Assembly (NCBI GenBank): GCA_902517565.1
Contig: CABYCU010000001.1
Coordinates: 248,001-312,000 of the forward strand
DNA length: 64,000 bases
Source: an uncultured SAR86 cluster bacterium
GTDB taxonomy: Bacteria > Pseudomonadota > Gammaproteobacteria > Magnimaribacterales > Magnimaribacteraceae
Reading direction: 5' to 3'
Shown here: in pieces, positions 1,309-20,513 of the stretch
Position numbering within the stretch: position 1 is the first letter of the stretch
Layout of the letters: each line of letters opens with the position of its first letter
Notes under the pieces: model-generated
What the model saw: only the letters and a program-made list of their open reading frames with translations
Told to the model about the DNA's origin: nothing
The model's database searches: none
Translations under genes and position numbers: made by a program

Positions 1309-2929
1309 AACCTCACTTATTTTTGCTATCGCAATTACTCTTTATTACCTTCTTCTTCAATGGCCCGTCAATACTATTGAGGAACCTTATATAGAAGAAA
1401 TAGCCAATCAATCAATGGATTTAAATGATAGTGAGCAGTTACTATCAGAAACACTTGCACCCTTGTCTTCATCATCGAAAATCGAGCCCGTGGCAAAGAT
1501 AGATGAGTCAAGTTACTTTGAAATACAAAACGATGATTTGTCGCTTTTGATAGATTCTCGAACTGGAAGATTTTTTGCTTCACAGCTCAAAAATATTTCT
1601 GAAACAAAAGGTTCTGAGGAAGGCTTTATGGTCCTGGGTAGGACCTATAATGCAGATTCCGGAGGGGAAAATATTTACTTTGCCAACAGTGGTTTTTACA
1701 CCAGAACTCAAGGCTACTTGGACCCTGACTTCTCAAAAATTTCGGAACTAAATAGCAGCGAAGGAACGATGACTTATCTGTTGGAAGGTTCTGGGAATGG
1801 TATGACTTTTTCTAGAAGAATTGAAGTTCAGAAAAGTGGTTATGCGATAGATGTTGAAGATAAGGTTAGTTCTTCTCTTGATGAAGACATTGTGATCACT
1901 CCTTATGTCGTAATTGAAAGAGATGCATCTACCGTTGAAGAGAGTGGGCTAATGTATACATACTTGGGGCCGGTGTTTTCTTCTTCAAAGGACACTTATG
2001 AAAAATACGATTTTGATGACATTAAAGAAGCCTCTTATCAAAACAAATCATCTGGTGGTTGGGTGGCGCTGATACAGCACTACTTCTTGTCTGCTTGGGT
2101 ACCTGATCAGGCAAATGAGTATCTATATCAGGGTAGGTATGGTGAAAACTCTGGTCGATACTCTCTTGGGTACACCTCGAAGGACCTTATTGTGTCCTAC
2201 GGTGGCTCAATTTCCGCAAAAAATACATTGTATGTTGGGCCTAAGCTGCCAAAACAACTTGCTGAAATAGAAGAAAACCTTGATTTAACTGTAGATTACG
2301 GCTTTCTCTGGTGGCTTGGCAAGCCGATGTATTGGCTTCTAGACCTCGGACACGATATTTTTAAGAACTGGGGTCTTGCCATAATATTCCTGACGGTTGT
2401 TTTGAAGTTGGCCACTTGGCCTCTTTCGGCAAAAGCCTATGTTTCGATGGGCAAAATGAGGGAGTTGGCTCCAAAAATGCAGCTTCTTCAAGAAAAACAC
2501 GGTGAAAATAAGCAGGCTATGAGCCAAGAACTAATGGAAATGTATAAAAAAGAAGGTGTAAACCCTCTTGGAGGTTGTTTGCCTATGCTTGCCCAAATGC
2601 CTTTCTTTCTTGCTTTTTATTGGGTTCTGCTCGAAACGGTTGAATTAAGACACTCACCTTTCTTTTTGTGGATAGATGATCTTTCGGCAATGGACCCTTA
2701 TTTTGTTCTCCCTATACTTAACGGAGCAGGAATGTATCTTTCCCAAAAACTCACTCCTACTCCACCAAATGCAGATCCAATGCAGGCACAGATGATGAAG
2801 TTCTTTCCGCTTATCTTTGCTGTTATTTTTGCCTGGTTTCCCTCTGGGCTGGTTCTGTACTGGTTGGTTAATATGTTGATACAAATTTTTCAGCAGTGGT
2901 GGTATTCAAGAAAGGCTAAGGCCTCTTAG
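1295..2929 (+). CDS. yidC: Membrane protein insertase YidC
   Basis: The 544-residue product is the Oxa1/Alb3-type insertase of Gram-negative type. It has an N-terminal membrane segment (about residues 5-22, after [10 protein letters not shown]), a large periplasmic domain to about residue 325, then the conserved hydrophobic core with [38 protein letters not shown] and the final [17 protein letters not shown] segment. I chose the ATG at 1295 because GGAGG lies at 1281-1285 just before it and the protein then aligns with family N-termini; an in-frame ATG at 1274 would add seven residues. It acts with SecYEG and YidD in the inner membrane. Confidence 0.96.
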
Positions 2930-2930
2930 T

Positions 2931-4241
2931 TTGAACAAAAGGACAATAATAGCTCCTGCAACAGCCCCTGGTAGGGGCGGTATTTCTGTTATAAGAATGT
3001 CTGGAACAGACGCAAGAAAAATATCAGAGGAAATGTGCGGTCAAAGGGTTGAGGTGTCTCGTTTAAAGAAATGTAATATTAAGTCTTCAGATGGATTAAC
3101 TTTAGACAGTGGTATGGTGGTTTTCTTTGAGTCCCCTAATTCTTATACTGGCGATGATGTTGTTGAGTTTCATTGCCATGGCAATCCAACCATTGTTGAT
3201 TTGGTTGTGGAGGAGGCTTTGAGGTTGGGTGCGGTTGTTGCTGAACCCGGAGAATTTACTAAAACAGCCTTTTTAAATGATAAGATTGATTTGGCTCAAG
3301 CAGAGTCAGTTGCAGATCTTATACACGCTCAAAGCAAAAGTGCTGTAGTAGCTGCAAACTCGTCTCTTTCTGGAGATTTCTCAAAAAAAATAAACTTACT
3401 TATTGATGGTGTTATAAATGCGAGAGTTTTTATAGAAGCCAATATAGATTTTCCTGAAGAAGAAATAGATGAGAAATCTTTCAGTGTTATCAATTCAGAC
3501 CTTTGTAAATACCGGGACGAAATTAATGACCTACTTTCTGTGGTTAAAGGGGGTGTAAGGCTCAGAGAGGGGTACTCAGTTGCCATAATAGGTCCGCCTA
3601 ATGCTGGTAAATCTTCTTTGTTGAACCTCTTAGCTCGAGAGGATGTCGCTATAACATCAGAAACACCCGGTACAACAAGAGACTTGGTGAGAACATCTGT
3701 GAATCTCGGAGGGGTTGTGGTTGAGTTTATAGATACTGCGGGTGTAAGGGAGAATCCTGCAGATTTGATTGAGGCTGAAGGTATATCAAGGTCAAAGGAG
3801 GTTATAAGGAAGTCCAATTTAAGTATCTTAGTTCAAGATGTAACAGATCAGAGGGATTTTGATTTTGAGTTAACTGATCATATAACAGTACTCAATAAGT
3901 CTGATTTATTGCAAGGTGATAGTTTGGAAAAAGGTCGTCTTTATTTATCGTGTACAAGCGGTGAAGGGGTTGAAGATCTCTTAAAAGTCATACTGTCGAA
4001 GTTGGGTGTGGATGAGGGTGTCGAAACGGCTTACCTTTCTAGAAAAAGGCACGTGGTTTCTTTGCAGGGAGCTAAGTTGTTAATTGAAGAGACTGTCGTT
4101 TCTTTGAACGAAGGTCAGGCTCTTGAGCTTGTGGCTGAAAATTTGAGATCAGCCCACCATATGCTTGGTGATATTTTGAGACCAATGAGTGCAGATGATT
4201 TGTTGGGAGAAATCTTTTCTGAATTTTGTATTGGTAAGTAA
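2931..4241 (+). CDS. mnmE: tRNA modification GTPase MnmE
   Basis: The 436-residue protein (family about 450) has the N-terminal tetrahydrofolate-binding domain beginning TIIAPATAPGRGGISVIR, the G domain with GPPNAGKSS (residues 221-229), DTAG and NKSD motifs, and the invariant C-terminal FCIGK. With MnmG it forms the complex that adds carboxymethylaminomethyl groups to wobble uridine 34 of certain tRNAs. The start is TTG, one base after the yidC stop. Coding strand is markedly G/T-rich, unlike mnmG downstream. Confidence 0.96.
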   Translation: MNKRTIIAPATAPGRGGISVIRMSGTDARKISEEMCGQRVEVSRLKKCNIKSSDGLTLDSGMVVFFESPNSYTGDDVVEFHCHGNPTIVDLVVEEALRLGAVVAEPGEFTKTAFLNDKIDLAQAESVADLIHAQSKSAVVAANSSLSGDFSKKINLLIDGVINARVFIEANIDFPEEEIDEKSFSVINSDLCKYRDEINDLLSVVKGGVRLREGYSVAIIGPPNAGKSSLLNLLAREDVAITSETPGTTRDLVRTSVNLGGVVVEFIDTAGVRENPADLIEAEGISRSKEVIRKSNLSILVQDVTDQRDFDFELTDHITVLNKSDLLQGDSLEKGRLYLSCTSGEGVEDLLKVILSKLGVDEGVETAYLSRKRHVVSLQGAKLLIEETVVSLNEGQALELVAENLRSAHHMLGDILRPMSADDLLGEIFSEFCIGK

Positions 4242-4472
4242 ATGTGTAAAAGTTGTTCAAAAATTTTTTCATTTTGTGAATTATTTTTTTAGTTAACAAT
4301 CCATACAAACATACTCCGGTTACTTCAGCCCAACTTCAACAACTTTCTATACCCAAACACGATAAGAAAACAAAGGTTTTGGTTTAACTGTCCACAGAAA
4401 ACTAAAGCCTAATAATAATAAATTAATATAAAATACATTTATCTAATAAATCTATATCTTTTTTTATAGGCT
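4242..4472. other. AT-rich 231-base gap before mnmG; possible secondary origin-like region
   Basis: The largest intergenic gap of the window. It contains long A/T runs (about 4400-4470 is nearly pure A/T) and one DnaA-box-like CTGTCCACA near 4387-4395 (7 of 9 matches to TTATCCACA). In enterobacteria and vibrios oriC sits immediately upstream of mnmG. No convincing terminator or second perfect DnaA box was seen, so an origin role is only possible. Confidence 0.3.
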
Positions 4473-6335
4473 GTGAATAAGTTCGACATAATTGTAATAG
4501 GTGGTGGACACGCGGGGGTGGAGGCAGCTTCAGCCGCCTCAAGATCAGGTGTGAGAGTATTATTGATTACACACGATGAAAGCAAGATAGGGGAGATGTC
4601 ATGCAATCCAGCAATAGGCGGAATCGGCAAGAGTCACCTAGCTAAAGAAGTAGACGCGCTGGGCGGTTTGATGGCCAGAGCGGCGGACAGGGCGGGTATA
4701 CATTACCGGGTTCTTAATTCCACTAAAGGTCAAGCGGTCAGGGCAACACGAGTTCAGACCGACAGAGATCTTTACAAGGCAGCCATACAAGAATTTCTTC
4801 AATCCTCAGAAAATCTAATCATAAAAGAAGGTTCTGTAATAGACTTCAAAATAGAAGAATCAACAATAAAATCAGTTATTACAGAAACAGGAGAAGAGAT
4901 TAAAGCCGAAGCCGTAATCTTGACCACAGGGACGTTCCTAGGTGGTGTTATGCATACAGGTCTAGAGCAATCTCCTGGGGGTCGCGTAGGTGACCCCTCT
5001 AGCGACAAATTAGCAAAAAAGTTAAGAGGTCTAGACCTTAAAGTTGGGAGACTTAAGACCGGTACACCCCCAAGGCTCAACAAACACTCTATAGATTGGT
5101 CGGCACTTATATCCCAACCAGGCGATGTTCCCACTCCTCTACTTTCATACACATCAAAAACAGAAGACAGACCTCAACAACTGAACTGTTTCATGACCAG
5201 AACAAACAAAAAAACACACCAAATTATACTTAACCACTTAGATCAATCACCAATGTATTCTGGAGTCATAGAAGGTATCGGGCCAAGATACTGCCCCTCT
5301 ATTGAAGACAAAATAATGAGATTCTCCGAACGAGACTCACATCAAATATTTGCAGAACCGGAAGGGCTTAATTCAGACCTTATTTATCCAAACGGAATAT
5401 CAACAAGCTTGCCACTATCGGCACAACGAGAACTCATAAAATCAATAAAAGGATTCGAGAAAGCAGAAATAGTTAGACCAGGTTACGCAATAGAATATGA
5501 TTTTTTTGACCCAACAGGCCTAAAACACTCCCTTGAGACAAAGGCCATAAAAGGCCTCTACTTTGCAGGTCAAATTAATGGCACCACAGGGTACGAAGAA
5601 GCCGCAGCACAGGGAATAATGGCAGGTATAAATGCGTCACTAAGAATAAAAAATGAGAATGCTTTCGAGCTTAAAAGAGATGAAGCCTATATAGGCGTTT
5701 TAATAGACGACCTGGTTAGCTTGGGAACAAAAGAGCCCTATAGGATGTTTACCAGCAGAGCAGAGTACAGGCTTATTTTACGAGAAGACAATGCCGATAG
5801 CCGGCTTACAGAAAAGGGAAAGTCCCTAGGAATTGTTTCCGATGTTCTTTGGAAAAACTTTCAGCAAAAAACTGAAGCAGCAAAACAAGAAACCCTTCGC
5901 CTGCAAAAAGAAAAACTGAAACCAAACTCATCCGCGGCTGCCAAAATACAAAAACTTTCAGGCGAACGAATAACCAACAACACCAGCCTTTATGAAATGT
6001 TAAAAAGACCAAGGGTGCTCCACTCTCACCTACCCCAAGGAAGTGATGTTCTGGAAAGAAACGTGGTAGACGAAATAGAGGCTTCTGTAAAATATGAGGG
6101 CTATATAAAAAGACAAAAAACTGACATAGAAAGATTACAAAGAAACGAAAACACACCGATACCTAACCACATAGACTTCGAGAGCGTTGTTGGCCTTTCA
6201 AACGAGGTTAAGCAGAAGCTCTCAGAGGCGAGGCCGGAAAGTCTGGCTAGAGCATCAAGGTTACCGGGTGTCACACCCGCAGCAATCTCACTATTGATGG
6301 TACACCTCAAAAAAGAAAGGCGGGCAGTTGGATAA
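4473..6335 (+). CDS. mnmG: tRNA uridine-5-carboxymethylaminomethyl modification enzyme MnmG
   Basis: The 620-residue FAD enzyme (GidA family, usual length 620-630) starts with the dinucleotide-binding GGGHAGVEAA at about residues 9-18, followed by the family motifs MSCNPAIGGIGKSHL and RVLNSTKGQAVRATR. A later GYEEAAAQGIMAG segment is also typical. It partners MnmE in wobble uridine modification. The start is GTG. Its 3' end overlaps rsmG by eight bases. The coding strand is C- and A-rich, the reverse of most genes in the window. Confidence 0.97.
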   Translation: MNKFDIIVIGGGHAGVEAASAASRSGVRVLLITHDESKIGEMSCNPAIGGIGKSHLAKEVDALGGLMARAADRAGIHYRVLNSTKGQAVRATRVQTDRDLYKAAIQEFLQSSENLIIKEGSVIDFKIEESTIKSVITETGEEIKAEAVILTTGTFLGGVMHTGLEQSPGGRVGDPSSDKLAKKLRGLDLKVGRLKTGTPPRLNKHSIDWSALISQPGDVPTPLLSYTSKTEDRPQQLNCFMTRTNKKTHQIILNHLDQSPMYSGVIEGIGPRYCPSIEDKIMRFSERDSHQIFAEPEGLNSDLIYPNGISTSLPLSAQRELIKSIKGFEKAEIVRPGYAIEYDFFDPTGLKHSLETKAIKGLYFAGQINGTTGYEEAAAQGIMAGINASLRIKNENAFELKRDEAYIGVLIDDLVSLGTKEPYRMFTSRAEYRLILREDNADSRLTEKGKSLGIVSDVLWKNFQQKTEAAKQETLRLQKEKLKPNSSAAAKIQKLSGERITNNTSLYEMLKRPRVLHSHLPQGSDVLERNVVDEIEASVKYEGYIKRQKTDIERLQRNENTPIPNHIDFESVVGLSNEVKQKLSEARPESLARASRLPGVTPAAISLLMVHLKKERRAVG

Positions 6336-17443: not shown

Positions 17444-19279
17444 ATGTGTGGAATTATTGGTGTTGCGTCTAGTAAACCTTCGGTAGACAAATTGCTGATA
17501 GGGCTATTACGCCAAGAATATAGAGGTTACGATTCAGCTGGACTAGCTATTTTCGACGAGGCTGAACAAATTCAGGTTTTTAAGAGCACGGGTAAGGTCG
17601 CCGAGCTCCAAAACTCGATTGATAACAACCCTGTCAATGGAAATACCGGCATAGCTCATACCAGATGGGCAACTCACGGCTTACCAACAGAAGCCAATGC
17701 TCACCCCCATCACTCAAATAATGAAGTCTTTGTCATACATAACGGCATAATAGAGAACCATCAAGAAATAAGAACCACCCTTAAAGCTCTTGGATATACA
17801 TTCGAGTCTGAAACCGATACTGAGGTTATAGCTCATTTGATACATGCAAAAATGTCAGAGAATGATTTATCTTTGATGGAGGCACTAAAGATGGCGGTTA
17901 AGGACCTAAGAGGCGCTTACGCAATAGGCGCTGTTTGTGAAGCAGAGCCTGGTATGTTGGCCGCTGCAAGAAAAGGAAGTCCATTAGTGGTCGGTATCGG
18001 ACACGGAGAAAATTTTATTGCCTCTGATCAACTGGCCCTGGCTGATTTTGCAGAAAACTTTGTATTTCTAGAGGAGGGCGATCTTGCTGAAATTACATCA
18101 ACTTACATAAAATACTGGAACCTAAATGATGACGAAGTAGAAAGACCGGTCGTTGTGGCAAAGTCTTTAGGCGAAACAGTAGACAAGGGTGAATATAGAC
18201 ATTTCATGCTCAAAGAAATAAATGAGCAACCAGCTAAAATAAAAGGGCTTTTAGATGGCCAATTAACAGAATCAGGTGTTCAAGAAGAAATTTTCGGACC
18301 TAATGCACCTGAAATCTTTAAAAATGTTCAGGCAGTTCAAATTGTTGCATGTGGAACCAGTTTCCACGCAGGCACCGTGGCTAAGTATTGGCTTGAAGGC
18401 CTTGCTGGTTTGCCTTGTAGTGTTGAGGTTGCAAGTGAGTTTAGGTATAGAAATAAGGTTGTGGCACCGAATACTTTATTTATAACTATATCTCAGTCTG
18501 GAGAAACGGCTGACACTCTGGCCTGTTTGAGTGCTGCAAAAGATGCAGGCTATCTATCACGCTTAGGTATTTGCAATGTGCCTTCTAGCTCTTTGGCGCG
18601 TGAATCTGATTTAGTTTTCTTGACTAAAGCCGGACCAGAGATAGGTGTAGCGTCCACAAAAGCCTTTACAACTCAACTGGTAGGCTTGTTGATGTTGACT
18701 CTTATTCTGGGAAGATACCATGGCCTTTCATCTGCGGCTGAGAATACTATTAACAATTCGCTAAGGGCTTTGCCTGAATCCTTAGATGCCGTTATGTCGC
18801 TAGAAGATCAGATTATAGAGATGGCTGAGGACTTTGATTCTAAAGAACATGCTTTGTTTCTAGGAAGAGGAATTCATTACCCTGTTGCGATGGAAGGGGC
18901 CTTAAAGCTTAAAGAAATTTCTTACATTCATGCAGAAGCTTATCCAGCAGGGGAGCTGAAACATGGCCCACTCGCTCTTGTTGACTCGGAGATGCCTGTT
19001 GTAGCTGTTGCACCAAACGATGATTTATTAGAAAAACTTCAATCTAACTTGGAGGAAGTGCGAGCGAGAGGCGGTAAGCTGTATGTCTTTGGACATTCCG
19101 AAGCTCATCATAACGATGAGTCAATAACTAAGTTTATAGAGCTGCCTGAGATTCCTGAACTTATTGCACCTCTGATTTATTCTATACCGTTGCAGTTACT
19201 TGCATATCATGTCGCTATTCTAAAGGGCACTGATATTGACCAGCCAAGAAACTTGGCCAAGTCCGTCACCGTTGAATAA
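17444..19279 (+). CDS. glmS: Glutamine-fructose-6-phosphate aminotransferase (isomerizing)
   Basis: The 611-residue enzyme (E. coli 609) starts MCGIIGVAS, placing the glutaminase nucleophile Cys at position 2, with the GIAHTRWATHG motif following. Two SIS domains make up the C-terminal half (CGTSFHAG, SQSGETADTL), and it ends LAKSVTVE as usual. It supplies glucosamine-6-P upstream of GlmU. No glmS ribozyme is visible. The next gene, a restriction-type nuclease, begins only three bases later. Confidence 0.98.
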   Translation: MCGIIGVASSKPSVDKLLIGLLRQEYRGYDSAGLAIFDEAEQIQVFKSTGKVAELQNSIDNNPVNGNTGIAHTRWATHGLPTEANAHPHHSNNEVFVIHNGIIENHQEIRTTLKALGYTFESETDTEVIAHLIHAKMSENDLSLMEALKMAVKDLRGAYAIGAVCEAEPGMLAAARKGSPLVVGIGHGENFIASDQLALADFAENFVFLEEGDLAEITSTYIKYWNLNDDEVERPVVVAKSLGETVDKGEYRHFMLKEINEQPAKIKGLLDGQLTESGVQEEIFGPNAPEIFKNVQAVQIVACGTSFHAGTVAKYWLEGLAGLPCSVEVASEFRYRNKVVAPNTLFITISQSGETADTLACLSAAKDAGYLSRLGICNVPSSSLARESDLVFLTKAGPEIGVASTKAFTTQLVGLLMLTLILGRYHGLSSAAENTINNSLRALPESLDAVMSLEDQIIEMAEDFDSKEHALFLGRGIHYPVAMEGALKLKEISYIHAEAYPAGELKHGPLALVDSEMPVVAVAPNDDLLEKLQSNLEEVRARGGKLYVFGHSEAHHNDESITKFIELPEIPELIAPLIYSIPLQLLAYHVAILKGTDIDQPRNLAKSVTVE

Positions 19280-19281
19280 AA

Positions 19282-20190
19282 ATGGATATTAGTTTTTTAG
19301 ATAAATTCCTTCAGCAAACAAAAACCACAAACTTAAAAACAAAAGATCTTTATCCGGATTTAATAAATGACCTAGATGTCAAAGTGTCTTTTGGCATGGG
19401 AACACCTACACATGTTCCTTGGATATCTACTCTTGGACCGGGAATGTCTACCAGCAACGGTTATTACCCAGTTTATCTTTACTATAAAAAAGAAAATATC
19501 TTAATTCTTGCATACGGAATTAGTGAAACAGTAGATTATGAAGAACCTTGGACAAGAGAGATTGTAGACTCTAATCAAAAAATAAAAGATTTTTTGGATA
19601 AACCATTCAGGTATGGTGAATCTTATGTGTTCCAAACATACGTTCCAGAAATAACAGAAACCGAGGTCAAATATTTCAGAAACGAAAGAGAGATCTCAAA
19701 AGAAGATATCGCAAAAGATCTAAAAGATATCACTGACAAATACAAAGAGTGTTTAGATATTGAGGTTAAAGATGAAGGTTCAGACCTAAGCAAAGGTTTG
19801 TTCTATATGGAAAGTCAACTAGAAGATTTCATTATTCAAAACTGGAATGAGAGCGAATTTGGAAAGAAGTACGATTTAATAATTAAAGACGGTGAATTGG
19901 AAAGTCAGCAATACAGAACCGATATTGGTCCAATTGATATTCTAGCAACTGATAAAAATACAGGTGAGTATGTTGTTATTGAACTCAAAAGAAACCAAAC
20001 GAGTGACCAGACAATAGGACAAATTGCACGGTACATGCAATGGGTGGAGGAAAATCTCAATAAGGGAGTTAAAGGAGTTATTGTTTGTGGCAAATGGGAC
20101 GAAAAACTAGACTATGCAAGAAAAAGAATGGGAGATGTAGAAGTTCTTCTTTATGAAGTGAATTTTAGTCTTAAAGAATATAAGAAATGA
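19282..20190 (+). CDS. McrB-N (DUF3578)-like domain fused to NucS/PD-(D/E)XK nuclease domain; putative type IV restriction enzyme
   Basis: The 302-residue protein has two parts. Residues about 1-130 resemble the MrcB/DUF3578 N-terminal domain of modification-dependent restriction systems (MGTPTHVPWIS, then GYYPVYLYYKKENILILAYG). Residues about 175-302 resemble the NucS-type nuclease core: an LEDFI helix, DIGPIDIL with Asp219, VVIELKR with Glu234 and Lys236, and QIARYMQWV. This Asp-Glu-x-Lys set fits a PD-(D/E)XK active site. The inferred role is cleavage of modified foreign DNA. It is a single-gene unit without visible methylase, directly behind glmS. No frame damage is seen. The assignment rests on recognition of motifs, not on a search. 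Confidence 0.7.
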   Translation: MDISFLDKFLQQTKTTNLKTKDLYPDLINDLDVKVSFGMGTPTHVPWISTLGPGMSTSNGYYPVYLYYKKENILILAYGISETVDYEEPWTREIVDSNQKIKDFLDKPFRYGESYVFQTYVPEITETEVKYFRNEREISKEDIAKDLKDITDKYKECLDIEVKDEGSDLSKGLFYMESQLEDFIIQNWNESEFGKKYDLIIKDGELESQQYRTDIGPIDILATDKNTGEYVVIELKRNQTSDQTIGQIARYMQWVEENLNKGVKGVIVCGKWDEKLDYARKRMGDVEVLLYEVNFSLKEYKK

Positions 20191-20249
20191 ATATTGGGTG
20201 GGGTAAGAACACTCCGTTACGGTAGAGTAATTTTGGATAATGGAGTTTT

Positions 20250-20435
20250 ATGATTGAGTTTTTGTTAACTTGTATTCTGGTTACCTTGGTTTTTATAGGT
20301 TTACAGATTGAAGATCTCACAAAAAAAGACTACCAAGTTAGATCAGATTTTTGGGGATTTTTGAAGTATATCATTGGTTTTTCATTACTTATTTTTGGGG
20401 TACTTAAGTTAGTAAATTGGATTTTATTTTCATGA
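20250..20435 (+). CDS. Small membrane protein of unknown function
   Basis: The 61-residue ORF encodes two hydrophobic segments (about residues 2-20 and 38-60) separated by a charged loop with DLTKKDYQVR. TGGAG lies a few bases before the ATG. I do not recognise a family. It stands alone between the nuclease and a MORN lipoprotein, and is preceded and followed by similar degenerate sequences (see findings). A real gene is plausible but unproven. Confidence 0.5.
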   Translation: MIEFLLTCILVTLVFIGLQIEDLTKKDYQVRSDFWGFLKYIIGFSLLIFGVLKLVNWILFS

Positions 20436-20513
20436 AAAAACCTCACTACCCAAAATCATTCGGTAACGGTGGAATAGTTTCCACATAGGGTTTTTACAAA
20501 GACCTGGAGAGAT

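Follow-up and report, generated by a model that had tools for sequence, protein, structure and literature searches.

The window, that is, the whole 64,000-nucleotide stretch of SAR86 DNA that was analysed, contains the gene glmS on the forward strand at positions 17444..19279, an ORF that ends in ...DIDQPRNLAKSVTVE* and has 26 orthologues in relatives. Starting 2 nt past the glmS stop, an ORF on the same strand (19282..20190) encodes a 302-residue fusion of an MrcB_N and a NucS_C domain. The end of glmS is itself repeated behind this gene: the pattern TCNGTNACNGTNGARTRR is matched exactly at 19262, 20213 and 20460, with no other mismatch-free match in the window. The three copies, all on the forward strand and within 1.2 kb, encode S-V-T-V-E-stop with differing synonymous codons and follow the 18-bp attachment (att) pattern TCNGTN-AC-NGTNGARTAR. 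Copy 1 (19262..19279) is the glmS 3' end, TCCGTC-AC-CGTTGAATAA, in which positions 19268-19269 are the exchange dinucleotide AC predicted from the exchange analyses described below; copy 2 (20213..20230) reads TCCGTT-AC-GGTAGAGTAA and copy 3 (20460..20477) reads TCGGTA-AC-GGTGGAATAG, both synonymous with the glmS end. Among the 47 long ORFs of the window, which served as a control, only glmS has a synonymous 3' end that is repeated in the window.

Copies 1 and 2 bound cassette 1, the nuclease cassette (19280..20212, forward strand, 933 bp), which is followed by cassette 2 (20231..20459, forward strand, 229 bp) with its inverted arms TTTTGGATAATGGAGTTTT / AAAACCTCACTACCCAAAA and a small ORF of 61 amino acids (20250-20435). 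At their right ends, two cassettes in the SAR86 genome G465 (L226) match 25 of 26 bases of the right attachment arm of cassette 1, ATGAATATTGGGTGGGGTAAGAACAC (20187..20212, forward strand). Although its right arm recurs in this way, cassette 1 presents no clear inverted left arm (score 7.0), so the cassette may be decayed or hybrid and perhaps immobile now. The window's own array contains no large serine recombinase. Judged by its sequence, glmS is more than a quiet insertion point: it ends in an attachment site, and the array behind it includes the nuclease as one of its cassettes.

The first-pass annotation had assigned the N-terminal half of the fusion to DUF3578/MrcB and the C-terminal half to a NucS-like PD-(D/E)XK nuclease with D219, E234 and K236 in its active site. 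Both assignments held. The N-terminal McrB-N-like (MrcB_N) reader domain (19282..19752, forward strand, approximately residues 1-157) scores above the Pfam cut-off (E-value of 1.2e-7, 31.9 bits, cut-off of 25), and its nearest solved sequence, the E. coli McrB N-domain (3ssc), aligns with residues 5-115 at E=2e-18, ungapped across the pocket region. The C-terminal NucS-type PD-(D/E)XK domain (19795..20181, forward strand, approximately residues 172-300) matches NucS_C with an E-value of 2.2e-11 and 44.3 bits against a Pfam cut-off of 24. When the full AlphaFold model (mean pLDDT of 71.8) was compared with the PDB, the best matches were McrB-N structures (E ~4e-9), followed by EndoMS/NucS (3e-6). 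SNAP-25 entries of the PDB also came up in the comparisons and were set aside as weak coiled-coil look-alikes. The nuclease half, modelled separately on a 17-row alignment (pLDDT of 85.6), has NucS 2vld (1.6e-7) and EndoMS 5gke (3.2e-7) as its top structures. D219 (codon at 19936-19938), E234 (19981-19983) and K236 (19987-19989) align to NucS positions 160, 174 and 176, which we take to be catalytic in NucS, and are invariant among 13 fusions and 17 diverse nuclease domains. The profile and structure check that had been proposed for the protein found both the nuclease fold and the active-site residues present.

In the reader domain, M39, W47, Y62 and L66 correspond to McrB Y41, W49, Y64 and L68, respectively. 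Across the 13-row alignment of fusions, the pocket equivalents W47 and L66 are invariant, Y62 is a tyrosine in 12 of 13, and the Y41 equivalent is M or Q. According to published work on E. coli McrB (PMC3874153), Y64 and L68 contact the methyl group of the flipped-out 5mC, Y41 occupies the space that the flipped base vacates, and the substitutions Y41A and Y41Q weakened binding. Given these effects, the M or Q at this position suggests the base specificity of the fusion may differ.

The fusion belongs with the McrB N-domain (MrcB_N, DUF3578, ADAM) of the Type IV system McrBC by family and fold, yet it differs from McrBC in having no GTPase, no adjoining McrC, the nuclease in the same chain, and M/Q at the Y41 position. 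Scans with Pfam, NCBIfam and PADLOC found no McrB AAA+ GTPase domain in the protein, residues 157-302 being nuclease, which bears out the initial description of a protein lacking the GTPase. McrC is not adjacent to the fusion gene in the window; a search for PF10117 (McrC) in the source genome, which is 74.6% complete, was likewise negative, but this is weak evidence, since the genome is incomplete and the same search was positive in only 1 of 14 control genomes and missed E. coli. With NucS/EndoMS the fusion has in common the catalytic fold and the residues at D160, E174 and K176, whereas the N-terminal DNA-binding domain is replaced by McrB-N and the scores against the NucS equivalog models lie far under their cut-offs (47.6 versus 216 bits, and 39.2 versus 252 bits). 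The nuclease half is also that of PDC-S02, a PADLOC phage-defence candidate (PDLC04824, PDLC04799; 1.5e-39, residues 147-298), whose N-terminal half is different, such that the fusion aligns only from model position 154. Other relatives of the nuclease half carry N-termini that are DUF3427 or unassigned. The family is thus a single nuclease whose N-terminal halves are interchangeable and presumably act as sensors.

A scan of 84,980 species genomes yielded 16 loci. The full-length alignment of 13 fusions leaves out one near-duplicate and one truncated locus, and includes the window and G038. The relatives are 53-88% identical, and the hosts are SAR86, an alphaproteobacterial MAG, SAR324, two Chloroflexi MAGs, Prochlorococcus, Pelagibacteraceae and Nealsonbacterium. 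In comparison with the protein of G450 (SAR86 AG-899-P03, of the same order as the window genome but a different family), pN/pS is 0.099/0.784 in the N-terminal half and 0.042/0.902 in the C-terminal half, i.e., synonymous sites are saturated and amino-acid-changing differences are few in either half. By this measure, both halves are under strong purifying selection, and this together with the 13 full-length members indicates the ORF is not a chance one. The nuclease is 88% identical between the window and G450, whereas the glmS protein is only 52% identical, which shows horizontal transfer. The fusion occurs in only 3 of 203 genomes of the SAR86 order, belonging to three families, and in none of the 18 genus-mates of the source genome, and the first gene behind glmS differs between genomes. 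The proposal that an accessory gene had inserted behind a housekeeping operon is therefore upheld; surveying relatives showed that the locus varies, and a stable presence as a core gene is ruled out. No relative was found in phage records (tblastn) or in a protein scan of viral contigs, and on plasmids only the nuclease half has relatives.

The domain composition suggests a mode of action in which the McrB-type domain would flip out and read a modified cytosine and the NucS-type PD-(D/E)XK domain would cut the DNA. The fusion would then be a one-protein, nucleotide-independent Type IV-like restriction nuclease. Both the cleavage of DNA and its dependence on modification are what we infer from sequence, and the nuclease probably cuts modified (foreign) DNA. 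No C5 cytosine methylase was found in the source genome at its 74.6% completeness, so the nuclease need not spare its own DNA. Two other functions were weighed. The protein could be a repair enzyme, i.e., a mismatch endonuclease of the NucS/EndoMS kind with an odd N-terminus, as its NucS_C catalytic domain and its best structural match to NucS/EndoMS would allow; we regard this as decidedly unlikely given the equivalog scores far too low for NucS, the McrB reader in the N-terminal half, the patchy and mobile distribution of the fusion, and the joining of the nuclease half to other N-termini (including DUF3427 and the N-terminal half of PDC-S02). The company it keeps also argues against repair, since restriction genes of types I, II and III are among the other cassettes of glmS arrays. 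These arrays further contain HNH nucleases and PDC-S18, a defence candidate. An abortive-infection or modified-RNA nuclease with the McrB fold as its sensor is unlikely too: relatives of McrB-N can be coupled to predicted RNA-targeting effectors in CoCoNuTs (PMC11090510), but NucS-type PD-(D/E)XK folds and the E. coli McrB-N act on DNA, and the protein itself contains no indication of RNA.

The glmS ends of the window are one case of a widespread arrangement, which was characterized mostly on MAGs and single-cell assemblies. In 26 genomes, a second copy of the glmS end was repeatedly found downstream of the gene, and 24 relatives contain 36 exact downstream att copies, where 0.005 would be expected. 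The att pattern is present in 152 of 202 genomes of the SAR86 order, many of them with 2-10 copies, nearly always on a single strand and a single contig; in the class but beyond this order, most genomes contain none or a single copy, the latter presumably being glmS itself. In two genomes of another SAR86 family (L080, L081), the serine at the glmS end is encoded by AGT/AGC and no exact copies of the TCN type occur, so arrays there, if any, need a different search pattern.

With up to one mismatch allowed per site, 66 SAR86 glmS regions were surveyed, yielding 233 sites that bound 167 cassettes with a median length of 611 bp, 98 of which have a single ORF. The main ORF is directed away from glmS in 146 of 160 cassettes. 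The start of a cassette is complementary to its own end, with a score of 9.55 versus 5.90 (sd of 0.12) for permuted pairs (n=167); the arms vary from cassette to cassette, yet covary within one. Where the arms are strong (83 cassettes), the symmetry is centred in 77 on position 6.5 of the 18-mer, which lies between A and C. The same cassettes recur in different SAR86 families. One cassette of 168 bp, with no ORF of 50 codons, is shared at 95-100% identity by four SAR86 genomes, whose arrays contain it at differing positions (L058 5809, L062 1819, L065 2240 and L071 3593), and may be a small peptide, an RNA or a pure att carrier.

The point of exchange was located with a recurrence test on 37 pairs, each made up of the same cassette in two different SAR86 genomes. 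At the left site, identity at synonymous positions is 0.25 and 0.19 before AC and 0.5-1.0 after it; at the right site, it is 0.66 and 0.57 before AC and 0.29-0.57 after it. Hence linkage in the recurrent cassettes switches between site positions 5 and 8, at both ends. An exchange of two base pairs with dyad symmetry is a signature of serine integrases.

Two complete elements at glmS, one of them in a SAR86 genome, carry such enzymes. In a search of viral contigs, DNA patterns for the common cassette starts gave none; a broader pattern returned 37 contigs, mostly unrelated chance sequences, among which three from viral collections (L172, L195 and L185) are real glmS elements and apparently one element at the glmS of different hosts. 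L172 and L195 contain both ends of the element, which is approximately 10.5 kb long, and L185 contains the left end; the travelling part starts at the A on the left and stops at the C on the right, and the DNA outside differs by host. Independently of the recurrence test, these contigs confine the exchange to AC. Adjoining the right att site, L172 encodes a large serine recombinase of 556 amino acids (Resolvase, Recombinase, zinc ribbon), and the first glmS element of G534 (L248), approximately 6 kb, encodes one of 551 amino acids (Resolvase, Recombinase); the two are 38% identical. Speaking against such an enzyme, a Resolvase-domain match exists in only 6 of 202 SAR86 genomes. The large serine recombinases of G041 and G044 were considered as helpers and excluded by position, since their genes lie away from glmS. 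G041 contains a 1.7-kb cassette that lacks an integrase but shares its arms with the G534 element (GTTTA[G/A]TCGGTCTTTC) at 15 of 16 and 18 of 20 bases, the next best left arm reaching 11 of 16, and no DNA match is detectable between the interiors of the two. Arms common to an element with a recombinase and a cassette without one are the pattern expected of movement in trans.

Other genes were seen in these elements. L172 encodes a 669-residue fusion of an Asn-synthase/QueC-like part and a C5 cytosine methylase (2799-4805), and, at the left end of the element, a small protein (156-434). Short ORFs resembling the latter are found at the left end of the G534 (L248) element, in other glmS cassettes and at L019:5912-6310; one short ORF in L019 matches the Recombinase DNA-binding domain (PF07508).

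The nuclease and its relatives are cargo at several sites besides that of the window. In G450 the nuclease is a precise glmS cassette (L083, sites 8412 and 9390), and the alphaproteobacterial MAG carries it between glmS ends (L019, 4959 and 6259) in a cassette whose 14-bp inverted repeat, TGTAAGGGGGTACT, has AC at its centre. The first glmS cassette of the SAR86 genome G431 is a full-length PDC-S02 protein, and proteins of L003 and L209 match PDC-S02 over its full length; in G060, a relative lies just before a glmS site. Elsewhere, relatives are found in small repeat-bounded insertions at the guaA 3' end (G038) and at tRNA-Sec in SAR324, and adjoining tRNA-Val and tRNA-Gln (L017, L027). The nuclease of Pelagibacteraceae lies in an integrase-free insertion of approximately 1.8 kb at tRNA-Met with direct repeats of 48-53 bp (L022 4787/6633, L023 4787/6592, L025 1148/2898), and that of L026 in an insertion between two copies (4832 and 6616) of a 26-bp repeat from the tmRNA gene end.

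Two further observations concern neighbouring genes and sites. In two SAR86 genomes, one and the same gene for approximately 107 amino acids is convergent to the nuclease (L002 1153-1482, L003 1117-1440) while the N-terminal halves of the nucleases differ, hinting at an exchange of the sensor in place or at a common insertion site. The guaA 3' end is likewise duplicated in SAR86 genomes (L082, reverse complement, 7807 and 10441; L251, 1146 and 4466; L252, reverse complement, 5314, 12364 and 13642), and the guaA elements of G426 and G439 carry small serine recombinases of approximately 210 amino acids, suggesting a sister system at guaA.

We propose the following mechanism for the array. Each cassette would carry one attP-like site, composed of the last five glmS codons and the stop, with inverted arms around AC. 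A complete element visiting glmS would supply a large serine integrase, and this enzyme would exchange strands at AC, with a circular cassette and the end of glmS as partners. The insertion would restore the glmS reading frame and push the former glmS end downstream, where it would become the next repeat. The circular intermediates, the action in trans and the expression of the cargo from the glmS transcript are parts of this scheme that we infer. It is quite likely, in our judgement, that the fusion is a one-protein, Type IV-like nuclease carried as a cassette of the glmS array, with the cassettes exchanged at AC by a large serine integrase.

The closest known counterpart is SCC/ECC at rlmH, with the large serine recombinases CcrA/CcrB, where the att site is also the 3' end of a housekeeping gene (PMC6222049, PMC8407400). 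There, att sites in the 3' end of a gene, with their direct and inverted repeats, are the substrate of the recombinases (PMC6222049), and some cassettes have no recombinase gene (PMC8407400). SCC/ECC and the glmS array have in common direct repeats at cassette ends, inverted repeats at the att centre, and both tandem and integrase-free cassettes. The glmS arrays display the end repeats, the dyad symmetry (weak in cassette 1) and a recombinase in the complete elements (G534, L172). They differ from SCC/ECC in their glmS anchor, their Gram-negative marine hosts, their variable arms, their cassettes, which are mostly a few hundred bases and one gene long, and the usual lack of an integrase in SAR86 genomes. 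Integron cassettes are likewise single genes in one direction, promoter-less in appearance, behind a fixed site and with complementary cassette ends; unlike integrons, however, the glmS array has no integron integrase, its site is the end of glmS, and its 2-bp exchange fits serine rather than tyrosine recombination. The array is thus SCC-like and integron-like, with cassettes probably moved in trans. No published description of glmS arrays in SAR86 was found in a literature search that reached few subscription papers.

These likenesses raise the alternative of a true integron mechanism, in which a tyrosine recombinase reads the folded single-stranded arms as attC and glmS as attI. The short, mostly single-gene cassettes, the nearly unidirectional ORFs (146 on the plus strand versus 14 on the minus strand) and the differing yet covarying arms agree with it. 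Nevertheless, we consider it highly improbable: complete or near-complete SAR86 genomes contain only two full Phage_integrase proteins, of approximately 300 amino acids and neither at glmS, which fits XerC and XerD as their presumable identity; IntI was not seen at any array examined; the complete elements at glmS carry large serine recombinases; and the exchange is limited to two bases with flanking dyad symmetry. The idea of a folded attC hairpin was dropped given that the symmetry is centred on the 2-bp exchange point and that the complete elements encode large serine integrases. That the array was produced by Tn7-like transposons targeted to glmS is barely credible, even though the glmS 3' end is the classical attTn7. 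Tn7 joins approximately 25 bp downstream of glmS and duplicates 5 bp, whereas the junction here is inside the last five codons, the 18-bp glmS end recurs with synonymous changes, and the cassette arms are variable rather than constant ends. A target-site duplication by a transposase was also rejected, since most differences between the copies and the local glmS are synonymous. Exchange at AC by large serine integrases is therefore the reading we retain.

More broadly, and with the evidence moderately in its favour, the glmS 3' end of SAR86, and at least occasionally of other marine bacteria, would be a gene-capture platform for integrase-free single-gene cassettes, many of them for defence, that circulate between families. 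Their attP arms would address changing large serine integrases arriving in trans, and their cargo would be read through from glmS. If true, this would be a second integron-like cassette economy, built on recombination of the serine and not the tyrosine type. Streamlined ocean bacteria are considered to hold few mobile genes, often with no recognisable integrases; the glmS site, present in many SAR86 genomes and datable through the synonymous changes of its displaced copies, offers a place where their trade in defence genes may be sought and read. The fusion itself is a compact reader-plus-cutter that could serve as a GTP-independent tool against modified DNA, and a single nuclease half joined to varied N-terminal halves provides a natural series for finding what each N-terminal half reads.
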